A stretch of DNA of 64,000 bases from Lachnospiraceae bacterium (GTDB lineage: Bacteria > Bacillota > Clostridia > Lachnospirales > Lachnospiraceae), in assembly GCA_017450485.1 (NCBI GenBank), contig JAFSTN010000025.1, forward strand, positions 186,001 through 250,000, written 5' to 3'. The notes under the pieces were generated by a model. It was given only the letters and a program-made list of their open reading frames with translations. It made no database searches and was not told where the DNA came from. The translations under genes and the position numbers were made by a program. Shown here piece after piece: positions 38,543 to 42,103 of the stretch (position 1 is its first letter; the number at the start of each line of letters is the position of its first letter).

Positions 38543-38566
38543 TTGTTTAGAGAGGGGGTCGATTAT

Positions 38567-39184
38567 ATGAATAAGGTTATTACTATAGGACGACAGTTCG
38601 GATCCGGCGGTCGTGAGATCGGTGAGAAATTGGCTAAGCATTTTGCCATACCGTATTATGATAAAGAACTTATCAACAGAGTTGCCAAGGATTCGGGCTT
38701 CTGTCAGGAGATAATCGAAAGCAATGATGAGCGTCCGACCAGTTCGTTTCTCTATAATCTGGTCATGGACACATATTCATTCGGATATAATTCATCATCC
38801 TTCATAGATATGCCGATCAGCCATAAGATATTTCTGGCTCAGTTTGAAACCATCAAAAATATAGCTGATGAAGGCCCGTGTGTTATCGTAGGCAGATGTG
38901 CGGATTATGCATTGTCCGAACATGAAAATGTCCTGAACGTTTTCATATGCGCAAATGAACAGTGCAGGATCAATCGAATCAAAGAGCGTCATCCCGAGAT
39001 CACTACTGATGCAAAAGCGCGTGATATGATGGTTAAGAAGGATAAACAGCGTCAGAGCTATTATAATTACTACGCATCCGGCAAATGGGGACATGCATCC
39101 ACTTATGATCTGACCGTGAACAGTTCTGTATTGGGAATAGAGGGGACTGTTGATCTGATTGCTGATTTTGTCGAAAAAGCATAA
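38567..39184 (+). CDS. cytidylate kinase-like family protein
   Basis: 205 residues from the ATG at 38567, preceded by AGAGGGGG. VITIGRQFGSGGREIGEKLA gives a P-loop of the cytidylate-kinase-like type (GRQFGSGGxxI), with IPYYDKELI and IVGRCADYAL following, and RIKERHPEI plus the DKQRQSYYNYY block at the C-terminal half. This family is found next to cmk-like genes in clostridia, but its nucleotide substrate is not established. It is the last + strand gene before the orientation switch; the gap to the convergent recombinase gene is 23 bases and holds no obvious terminator. Confidence 0.85.
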   Translation: MNKVITIGRQFGSGGREIGEKLAKHFAIPYYDKELINRVAKDSGFCQEIIESNDERPTSSFLYNLVMDTYSFGYNSSSFIDMPISHKIFLAQFETIKNIADEGPCVIVGRCADYALSEHENVLNVFICANEQCRINRIKERHPEITTDAKARDMMVKKDKQRQSYYNYYASGKWGHASTYDLTVNSSVLGIEGTVDLIADFVEKA

Positions 39185-39207
39185 AATACAGATCGGAAAT
39201 AAGGGGA

Positions 39208-40269
39208 CTATTTATCGCGTTTGAAGTTGACAGCGCCGGCTGCCAGACGTTTATGCTCGTCGTCTATGGCAGCATAGTAATCAATGGTCGTATTGACGTT
39301 CTCATGGCCCAAAACGTCTGCTACGAGCCTTATATCGCCCGTTTCGCGGTATAGGGCAGTACCATACGTACTCCGCAGTTTATGCGGAGTTATTTTTTTG
39401 TTCGGAACAACCATTTTAGCGTATTTTCTGACGAGATCCTCTATGGCGGCTATGCTCATTCTTTTATTTTGTAATGAATAGAAGAGGGCATTTTCAGAAC
39501 CTTTTTCGGGGATTACGGTAGTTCTCTGGCCATTAATATAGGTCTCCAGAGCAGTATGAACCTCATCGCCGAAGTAGATAATATCCTGTGTTCCGCCCTT
39601 TCTTACGATTGTTAAAGAATTCACAATCATATCAACGTCACCGACATCGAGTCCGGCACATTCGGACACACGAATCCCGGTATTAAGCATCAAGGTGAGG
39701 ATCGCCAGATCACGTTCACGTGTCTTGGCACAATATGCAAGCTGACGGTCAGACATCTGGGAATTGCCGTATTCAATGGCGTTTAATATGGCACGTACCT
39801 CATAATTATCCATACGGACAATGTTTTTGTCTTTTTTTATACGAGGAAGTTTTACAAGAACCATTGGATCCTTTTGGATATGTTCATGTTCATATTGATA
39901 TTTGAACATACCGCGTAAAGGACTCATTTTACGGGCAATTGCCTTTTTGCCGTTTTCGTGAGCTTCACCGATGGTATTGAACTCTAAGTACCTTTGATAT
40001 TCGACAATGTCTTCACTGGTCAGATTTGCCAGATCGTCTGTATTGATTTTTGAGATTTCTTTTTCGTGGAAATATGGGTTGCGATCTTTTAAAAATCGAA
40101 AAAACATTAACAGATCATGACAGTAAGCTACAAGCGTGCTTGGCTGTGAAGTAACTTGCTTATCGTATATAAAATCACGTGCAGGCTGAGGTAGCTCCTG
40201 AAGTAATTCCTGAAGCTTTGTTTTTATATTTCTGTTTTTATTTTTGTAGTATTCGGAATCTTTACCCAT
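39208..40269 (-). CDS. xerS: XerS-type tyrosine recombinase
   Basis: 353 residues, the length of XerS. The N-terminal core-binding SAM-like domain (about 20-130) carries LPQPARDFIYDKQ and LMFFRFLKDRNP; the catalytic domain has Arg200 (GIRVSE), Lys224 (VRKGG), His296 and Arg299 (HKLRSTYG), His322 (LGHENVNTT) and Tyr331, all in place. XerS acts alone at a dif-type site to resolve chromosome dimers with FtsK, in place of XerC and XerD. A dif-like palindrome lies 92 bases upstream of the start, and the gene is at the switch point of gene orientation. No phage or integrative-element genes are near, which argues against an integrase of a mobile element. There is no clear ribosome site. Confidence 0.85.
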   Translation of the reverse strand: MGKDSEYYKNKNRNIKTKLQELLQELPQPARDFIYDKQVTSQPSTLVAYCHDLLMFFRFLKDRNPYFHEKEISKINTDDLANLTSEDIVEYQRYLEFNTIGEAHENGKKAIARKMSPLRGMFKYQYEHEHIQKDPMVLVKLPRIKKDKNIVRMDNYEVRAILNAIEYGNSQMSDRQLAYCAKTRERDLAILTLMLNTGIRVSECAGLDVGDVDMIVNSLTIVRKGGTQDIIYFGDEVHTALETYINGQRTTVIPEKGSENALFYSLQNKRMSIAAIEDLVRKYAKMVVPNKKITPHKLRSTYGTALYRETGDIRLVADVLGHENVNTTIDYYAAIDDEHKRLAAGAVNFKRDK

Positions 40270-40360
40270 ATTACATATTAAAACTGCGGAAAATCATTAT
40301 ATATCAATAATACCATATATTGAGGCACAAGACCACTCTTCCTACTATTTATGGTCATAT

Positions 40361-40390
40361 CTATCCGAAAAACTGATATTTATCGGATAG
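40361..40390. other. candidate dif site upstream of xerS
   Basis: A 30-base imperfect palindrome: arms CTATCCGA (40361-40368) and TCGGATAG (40383-40390) match perfectly, and three further inner A/T pairs extend each arm to 12 bases with a single mismatch. The centre is six bases. This is the shape of a dif site, with two recombinase arms and a 6-8 base crossover region. The left half includes TCCGAAAAACT, which from memory is shared with the streptococcal/lactococcal difSL that lies next to xerS. A TATAAT box on the - strand at 40301-40296 may be the xerS promoter. Nothing else is seen in the 169-base gap. No T-run follows on either strand, so it is not a terminator. Confidence 0.7.
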
Positions 40391-40438
40391 TTCCAGGCCA
40401 AAAAAACACTGCTTTTCTATCTGTAAAATAACATATTT

Positions 40439-42103
40439 TTACTGGAGGGCTTTCAGATATCTGTTGTATTGAGCCTGCTTGACATCAATAACTTCAGACA
40501 GATTAAGAGAATCCAATTCATCTATATAGGCATCAAAATCATCGGATAGATTTTTATCACCGACGATAAAAGCATTGGCTGATTCATTGACGGTATTCTG
40601 GATGTCTTCCATATAGAGATTGACGGTATCACTCTCCTTGCTTGTTGCATAGATAGCCGGCCAGGGATCCTGAATATACTGACGCAGGTCTCTGTTGATC
40701 TGTGCATGCCAGTCGGCAACGAGTATATCGGTAGCCTCTACAGACTGATCTGCTGGAAGTACAAATGCCGGATTGATTCCAAAAGCCTGTAACCAGTCAT
40801 TGTCATTACCCTGTTCGGTATATTCACGGGTTCCGTCCGGCTTTACAATGTAGCTTTCTCCTTCAAATCCCCACTGGTAGTAATCCTGACAATGATCGCT
40901 CATCGCATAATCCAGGAATTTGACCGCCAGTTCTATATCATCCGATCCCTTATTAACCCCAAACATACCTGCAAGGGAGTTACGTCCTACATAGAAGCCT
41001 TTCTGCTCTCCTGAAAGCGGAGGCACACCGATAAACGCTTTAGCATCTGTTCCGTCATAATATGGCAATACGTTGGAATACATCATTGACATTGCCCAGC
41101 TGAAATCAAATGCAACACCTGTTAGATCCTTTGATATACGATCAATGACCATATCCCTGTCAAGTGCAGCATAATCGGGCTCCAGTAATCCTTCGTCATA
41201 TAATCCGTTTAAGAATTCTAGATATTTCCTGTAATTCTCCGCATCTGCGTATGCATAGGTGACATTTCCGTCCTTATCGGCCTGGAAACCGCTTACCAGA
41301 TCAAGACCGAAGGCAGGACCAAACATATATGGAAGGAATTCGGACATGATGCTCATCGGAATCTCATCAGATGAATCACCATTATCATTCATGTCGTTAT
41401 CCCTGAAATACTTAAGAAGCGTTACAAGATCATCAAGGTTATCGGGGGCTTCCATACCGGCTTTTTCAAGCCATACGCGGTTGTACATCAGGCATGGCTG
41501 ATAATCATCAGCGACATTTAATCCGGGAACGTAATATATATGTCCGTCTTCTGCTGTGAGCTCGGCTTTTTCTACGGGATTTGCCGATAACCATTTGGTG
41601 TAATTGGGCATATAATCAAAAAACTCATCAAGAGGAACAAAGAGACCTGATTTGATATAGACCTGATTGGGGTCTCCGGAGTCGGGAATCTTGATGATAT
41701 CCGCATCGGTATCTGCTGAATTCAGGATAGGGGTAACCATGTTCTCGTATGAATCATAATCAAAGAGCTGCCACTCCGGACTCACACCTGCTTCTTCGAA
41801 TACTTTCAGAACAATGGGAGCTTTTGTAATATCAACATTTGCATAGTTTGATTTCTGCGCAAGGATCTTGATCGTACCGCCATCCTGTGTGATAGGCGCA
41901 TCACCGGTATATACATATCCCGAAGCATCTTCTATAGCGGAAGCACGCTCGATAGCATCATCAACTTTTGCAGTATCGGCAAGTGCATTTGTTCCGGTAG
42001 CAGCTTCATTGTTGCCTGTATCCGTGACACTGTCACCGCACCCGGCTATACAAAATGAAGTCATTATCAGGGAAAGTACAACAGCTGCAGATCTTCTATA
42101 CAT
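40439..42103 (-). CDS. extracellular solute-binding lipoprotein (family 1 type)
   Basis: 554 residues with lipobox IAGC (Cys at residue 22) and a Thr/Asn/Asp-rich linker. The mature part resembles large family-1 sugar-binding proteins of the LipO/YtcQ kind: DIIKIPDSGDPNQVYIKSGL then FVPLDEFFDYMPNY, and YVPGLNVADDYQPCLMYNRV followed by WLEKAG. These normally feed an ABC permease for oligosaccharides, but no permease or ATPase genes are nearby. Instead it starts three bases after the stop of a hybrid kinase gene with GAGGA as ribosome site, so it may present a ligand to that kinase or use permeases encoded elsewhere. Confidence 0.88.
   Translation of the reverse strand: MYRRSAAVVLSLIMTSFCIAGCGDSVTDTGNNEAATGTNALADTAKVDDAIERASAIEDASGYVYTGDAPITQDGGTIKILAQKSNYANVDITKAPIVLKVFEEAGVSPEWQLFDYDSYENMVTPILNSADTDADIIKIPDSGDPNQVYIKSGLFVPLDEFFDYMPNYTKWLSANPVEKAELTAEDGHIYYVPGLNVADDYQPCLMYNRVWLEKAGMEAPDNLDDLVTLLKYFRDNDMNDNGDSSDEIPMSIMSEFLPYMFGPAFGLDLVSGFQADKDGNVTYAYADAENYRKYLEFLNGLYDEGLLEPDYAALDRDMVIDRISKDLTGVAFDFSWAMSMMYSNVLPYYDGTDAKAFIGVPPLSGEQKGFYVGRNSLAGMFGVNKGSDDIELAVKFLDYAMSDHCQDYYQWGFEGESYIVKPDGTREYTEQGNDNDWLQAFGINPAFVLPADQSVEATDILVADWHAQINRDLRQYIQDPWPAIYATSKESDTVNLYMEDIQNTVNESANAFIVGDKNLSDDFDAYIDELDSLNLSEVIDVKQAQYNRYLKALQ

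Follow-up and report, generated by a model that had tools for sequence, protein, structure and literature searches.

Among the Xer systems that work with a single recombinase, the excerpts available from reviews and papers (on which all statements about described systems in this text draw) name XerS, XerH, XerA and XerL, with streptococci and lactococci, Helicobacter and Campylobacter, Archaea and Legionellales as hosts. The site of XerS, difSL, is given there as 31 bp long, its arms being unequal and its centre measuring 11 bp. No Xer/dif system was described for Lachnospiraceae among the matches listed from the open-licence literature. The DNA analysed here (the window; G000:C10:186001-250000, 64,000 nucleotides) comes from a Lachnospiraceae bacterium whose 2.62-Mb genome is assembled in 49 contigs and is 91% complete, and it carries a single XerS-like tyrosine recombinase gene (xer) beside a dif-like palindrome. 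With high confidence, this locus is read as a single-recombinase module for chromosome-dimer resolution that is located at the replication terminus and related to XerS/difSL, the palindrome being very probably the site at which the recombinase separates joined chromosomes.

A recombinase gene and a dif-like site at the skew switch

The xer gene (39208..40269, minus strand, 353 aa) was identified from its open reading frame (ORF), domains, NCBIfam match and invariant residues. The 30-bp palindrome CTATCCGAAAAACTGATATTTATCGGATAG (40361..40390), read directly from the sequence, is present upstream of xer where the initial annotation had placed it, 91 bases from the ATG by our count and 92 by the earlier one, and is unique in the assembly: its 28-base core occurs at a single place in the 2.62 Mb with up to three mismatches allowed, and a 31-mer (the palindrome plus one base) found matches in 0 of 100 shuffles of the window at the same tolerance. 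It forms the core of a full 34-bp dif-like site (40359..40392; C10:226359-226392) that was located by the degenerate pattern of the family and consists of two arms of 14 bp each that flank a centre of 6 bp (AAA-N6-TTT). Matrices that were not trained on the window site score it at 41.4 bits.

Since the genome is in 49 contigs and 91% complete, guanine-cytosine (GC) skew was computed on contig C10 only (260,000 of its 260,743 bases covered), and relatives substitute for the remaining chromosome. Along the contig, skew is positive in each 10-kb bin as far as 220-230 kb, and the three bins that follow have −0.043, −0.068 and −0.115. The cumulative maximum of the contig falls on a single base, C10:226256 (40256..40256 of the window), just inside the start of xer and 105 bp from the palindrome; the skew extremum near 39-41 kb that the initial annotation had proposed as a test was therefore found. 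Gene orientation switches at the same place: in a mechanical, non-overlapping set of ORFs of at least 100 aa, the plus strand holds 29 of the 31 to the left of 39.2 kb, and the minus strand 21 of the 22 to the right (one of the two left-side exceptions, a 191-aa frame, lies at the edge of the window and runs antisense to a plus-strand ORF), so that the earlier counts of 33 of 34 and 22 of 23 were right in substance. The last plus-strand gene ahead of the switch is cytidylate-kinase-like (38543..39184; Cytidylate_kin2 domain), and the next minus-strand gene upstream of xer encodes an extracellular solute-binding protein (40439..42103; SBP_bac_1 domain).

The recombinase combines a Phage_integrase domain with a SAM-like N-terminal domain. 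XerS is its best NCBIfam model, which all 30 aligned homologues match as well, yet its 197.7 bits miss the curated cut-off of 267, and the two named XerS proteins scored reach 437.6 and 470.3. R199, K223, H295, R298, H321 and Y331, which we take to be the catalytic positions of a tyrosine recombinase, are unchanged in 30 of 30 homologues. In a tree of 47 rows (root arbitrary, XerH and XerL left out), a 96/92 split parts XerD and other XerC/D-like proteins from the XerS side, on which the recombinase lies. There it forms, together with homologues from its family, order and class, a group of its own (84/98, a bootstrap that is not firm), which adjoins four plasmid proteins named XerS (themselves grouped at 100/100) and two further groups, the branching order among all of these not being fixed by the tree; identity to the four named XerS is about 30-33%.

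With XerS/difSL, the window system thus shares a single recombinase of about 350 aa, a site adjoining the gene, the terminus position and the best NCBIfam model. Moreover, the left difSL arm given in the review, TTTCCGAAAA, matches TATCCGAAAA of the window site in 9 of 10 positions, and a symmetrised matrix reached 19.1 bits at 55 bp upstream of the named xerS of a Streptococcus salivarius plasmid (120 shuffled loci reached 12.3 at most), but it found a site in only one of the four plasmid loci with a named xerS. The system differs in its protein, as described above, and, to judge by the conserved motif, in its site, which is 34 bp and symmetric about a 6-bp centre compared with the 31 bp and 11-bp centre of difSL. 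As the protein fails the XerS cut-off and the site appears to have a different form, the recombinase is termed XerS-like and not filed as XerS; with this refinement the initial reading is supported. Judged by model score, layout and part of one arm, the window system appears nearest to XerS among the described ones. XerH/difH of Helicobacter and Campylobacter likewise has a single recombinase and a site often near the gene, but the solved XerH is only a distant match to the window protein (E 1.7e-12, behind XerA and XerD). XerL/dif of Legionellales, compared by description only, shares the single recombinase and the symmetric site, whereas gene and site lie more than 400 kb apart in L. pneumophila and are mostly adjacent here. 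XerCD/dif shares the terminus position and probably the role, and differs by its two recombinases and 28-bp dif, where the window genome has no XerC over the cut-off and no dif above control.

The module in relatives and the marking of the terminus

Strong matches to the recombinase (best E-value <1e-60 in the family, <1e-50 in the order and class) are present in 184 of 200 genomes of the family. They are also present in 133 of 146 genomes of the order, where each of 21 numbered families is represented, and in 50 of 292 genomes of the class, or 37 of the 277 outside the order. A variant of ATCTATCGGATAAATATCWGTTTTTCCGATAGAT lies upstream of xer in every one of the 12 close relatives (at 61-86% identity), and a variant of ATCTATACGACAAATACYGATTTTTCCAAAAGAT in many other family members. 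Site matrices were built from 24 sites of other genomes, the window excluded, and run with a threshold of 7.5 bits on the 80 best named loci among the matches listed, five of which share a training genome, leaving 75 independent ones; Pseudobutyrivibrio, Konateibacter, Shuttleworthella, Dorea, Blautia, Faecalicatena and Mediterraneibacter are among the genera covered. A site over threshold was found in 68 of the 75, and in 58 of these it is at most 400 bp upstream of the xer match, the usual distance being 59-323 bp. Reversed matrices passed in 1 of 80 loci, and shuffled loci reached 7.4 at most. The degenerate site pattern picks out 46 of the 200 family genomes and, when reversed, none of the 200; the sites of the remaining 154 are too divergent for it, or lacking. 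Conservation of the palindrome beside xer in relatives, which the initial annotation had set as a further test, is thus borne out, and so is the proposed layout of xer plus dif-like site at the terminus, as in streptococci and lactococci. Beyond that proposal, as judged from these matches, the module is widespread in Lachnospirales and occurs in some other Clostridia, with proteins distinct from the named XerS. Within genus g190, four complete-looking Lachnospirales genomes (G190, G254, G315 and G328) hold only a 30% relative of the recombinase, and G273 has a strong match.

Across 68 distinct sites (101 of 110 loci), positions 12-14 are invariably AAA and positions 21-23 TTT. At positions 6-8, moreover, the two arms vary together (z 5.9-8.6 by comparison with 500 shuffles, kinship being ignored). 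The window and its 87% relative L044 have CCG...CGG, L009 (86%) and other close relatives CGG...CCG, a difference that alters both arms together. In three of 61 near sites (L099, L120 and L094) the asymmetric site is inverted relative to xer; site polarity is therefore not fixed.

A few genomes hold additional or unusual copies. In G113, whose first site is at xer on C81, a second, slightly different site (38.3 bits) lies on the 166-kb contig C103 (L173 1209-1242) next to a small heat-shock-like gene, and C103 is perhaps a second replicon. In G141, two xer copies with equal scores and the same site are found on contigs C34 and C36, probably a duplicated assembly stretch. The L031 locus of G011 has a perfect palindrome, AGTTTACATAATATAATTATGTAAACT, just after the xer stop, and a XerS-type site is present on another contig, C2, of that genome. 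We presume that AGTTTACATAATATAATTATGTAAACT resembles the XerD arm of canonical dif.

The terminus position recurs in relatives. Taken as an average of 34 named loci (near site, both flanks 9 kb or longer), skew is positive to the left and negative to the right beyond xer; in single loci the peak is offset from the site by −2807 to +2343 bp, with a median of +904, and falls mostly within the gene. The same sign change was found in 53 of 58 loci with more than 3 kb on both sides of xer, the exceptions being L090, L107, L112, L113 and L122. Along the single-contig relative G175 (20 sampled stretches), skew is positive before the site, save for −0.015 at 1.0 Mb, and negative after it. Among 17 single-contig genomes with a strong match, a position was lacking for G170 and 15 of the other 16 had a dnaA match; in 12 of these 15, the arc from dnaA to xer spans 0.468-0.496 of the circle (most lengths rounded).

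Where gene and site are naturally separated, sequence alone can tell which one marks the terminus. This was tested on 14 loci whose site is displaced or stands alone; L050 and L087 (too short on one side) and L122 were left out. For seven of the 14 (L058, L090, L112, L179, L180, L181 and L182) the gap is 2.5-12.6 kb, reaching 12.6 kb in G051, and in 7 of 7 the cumulative skew peak is near the site, at a distance of 16-908 bp, and 2.5-12.3 kb away from xer. L112 is weak evidence, as only 488 bp separate its site from the edge of the locus. Six loci with a separation of 0.6-1.4 kb do not discriminate between site and gene, and in L178, which has a site without xer, the cumulative sum (CUSUM) change point is at the site and the cumulative peak elsewhere. 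As the skew peak stays with the displaced site, it is the site and not xer that marks the terminus.

Proposed mechanism and competing explanations

The site stands at the skew switch, is unique, has conserved and co-varying arms, is linked to its gene and is followed by the skew; binding, strand exchange and control by FtsK are what we infer for its working. In a dimeric chromosome, pairs of the XerS-like recombinase would bind both arms of each copy of the 34-bp site, and strands would be exchanged in or near the central 6 bp, turning the dimer into two monomers. FtsK would probably bring the sites together at the septum. An FtsK gamma domain is encoded on contig C10 (as it is in 19 of the 21 genomes searched, the window genome included), which allows for such control.

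The locus could simply be the streptococcal XerS/difSL found in another family, and not a system in its own right. XerS being the best NCBIfam model for the protein and matched by all 30 aligned members, the identical gene-site layout, the 19.1-bit match at the Streptococcus salivarius xerS and the 9 of 10 like positions in the left arm of difSL all speak for this. Yet a score of 197.7 against a cut-off of 267 and against 437.6 and 470.3 for two named XerS, a separate group (84/98) beside the 100/100 group of named XerS at about 30-33% identity, a site at only one of four named xerS plasmid loci and a difSL of 31 bp with an 11-bp centre make it unlikely, though a serious candidate. It is very unlikely that resolution is of the XerC/XerD type and encoded elsewhere, with the module as a second, minor system. 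A XerD over the curated cut-off on contig C3 of the window genome would suit that idea, but none of the five PF00589 matches in this genome reaches the XerC cut-off (as the assembly is only 91% complete, the absence of XerC is not certain). A canonical dif elsewhere in the genome was rejected, since the B. subtilis-type pattern gave six matches against five in the reversed control (up to three mismatches). The counter-sign named in the initial annotation, a separate xerC/xerD with another dif, was therefore encountered only as far as the XerD is concerned.

The palindrome might serve xer or the preceding gene as an operator or terminator and owe its place at the terminus to xer only. Its usual position 59-323 bp upstream of xer would fit, but sites are also found 2.5-12.6 kb away, inverted in three of the 61 near cases, or on a different contig from xer; the skew peak accompanies the site; a terminator scan reports none at the palindrome; and on viral contigs, the fetched stretches with the site encode no relative of xer. 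Given the displaced and inverted sites, the skew that follows them and the terminator scan, we consider a regulatory role highly improbable. Scarcely credible is a mobile-element integrase with the palindrome as its attachment site: a tyrosine recombinase next to a palindrome, and second site copies on other contigs in some genomes, would agree with it, but strong matches in most genomes of the order (133 of 146), at the skew switch and opposite dnaA in most single-contig genomes, speak against it.

Several results weigh against a terminal dimer-resolution module. Besides the XerD on contig C3, Kono et al. predicted a XerCD-type dif in 97 of 100 Firmicutes (inclusion of Lachnospirales not established). 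Sixteen of the 200 family genomes have no strong recombinase match. No site over threshold was found in L053, L093, L104, L106, L116, L119 and L123, some of which have little upstream sequence, and the site match of L122 is weak and downstream of xer. CUSUM change points fall within 1 kb of the site in only five of the seven widely separated loci, being elsewhere in L112 and L180, and the dnaA-to-xer arc deviates in G217 (0.383), G237 (0.239) and G299 (0.146).

Site copies on viral contigs and significance

The general site pattern ATCTATNCGNNAAANNNNNNTTTNNNNNATAGAT was found on 46 IMG/VR contigs (reversed pattern, 0), and a close-clade pattern added one more, giving 47 stretches (L204-L250); an exact search of the viral contigs for the commonest family site gave 0. 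No relative of the recombinase at E 1e-5 is present in the 47 stretches. In 32 of the 47, an ORF of 150-260 aa that faces the site ends 15-129 bp before it, compared with a mean of 3.6 and a maximum of 9 for random positions in the same loci. Four such or similarly placed ORFs were tested against PHROGs: small terminase was returned for L174 and L175, two loci of bacterial assemblies in which the site (L174 2270; L175 2523) stands beside the ORF, and the other two had no match. A large-terminase-like cluster, named by homology of its representative and by sequence reading, is found at most 5 kb from the site in 27 of 52 loci, the large terminase being confirmed directly in L177 only. Two large-terminase-like frames (L231 222-2861 and L174 5119-6639) have an interruption (LISDDTPVLT...GWKNHGD) that gives the impression of an intein. 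On the faecal phage scaffold MT835477, which was found by ORF homology and not by the motif, the site (L295 20719) lies 152 bp after a small-terminase-like ORF; a second scaffold found in the same way, MT836871, has no site.

The notion that these phages generally lack an integrase of their own was rejected, as 11 of the 47 viral records hold PF00589 (tyrosine recombinases; serine recombinases were not searched). For prophages at the chromosomal site, 92 ORFs beside phage or second-copy sites (loosely picked by size and distance, not all terminases) were compared by tblastn with 102 loci, and matches occurred only in four second-copy contigs and in none of the xer-bearing loci. Among 20 end stretches of 10 viral records, four hold the site; its distance to the nearer end is 2.4-7.7 kb for three of them and 356 bp for G644. 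Phage integration at the chromosomal site is therefore not supported by these results. BLAST with the 34-base sites as queries against phages and plasmids gave no match covering 80% of the query, and among the matches listed from the open-licence literature no tailed phages were described as using XerS. A bolder combined reading is that a separate single-recombinase lineage, neither XerS proper, XerH, XerL nor XerCD, is standard in Lachnospirales and some other Clostridia, and that a group of tailed phages carries a working site right behind the small-terminase gene, on which the host recombinase would act for integration or multimer resolution of the phage genome; it may be right, although we lean slightly against it. 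Phage copies, if functional, would add another example of elements that exploit a host Xer enzyme.

The system has known relatives in XerS/difSL; what is new is a variant that is widespread in Lachnospirales and is missed by the NCBI XerS model. If our reading as a terminal dimer-resolution module is true, the gene missed by that model would receive its right name, the module would offer a candidate integration site, and the genomes of Lachnospirales would gain an exact marker of the replication terminus.

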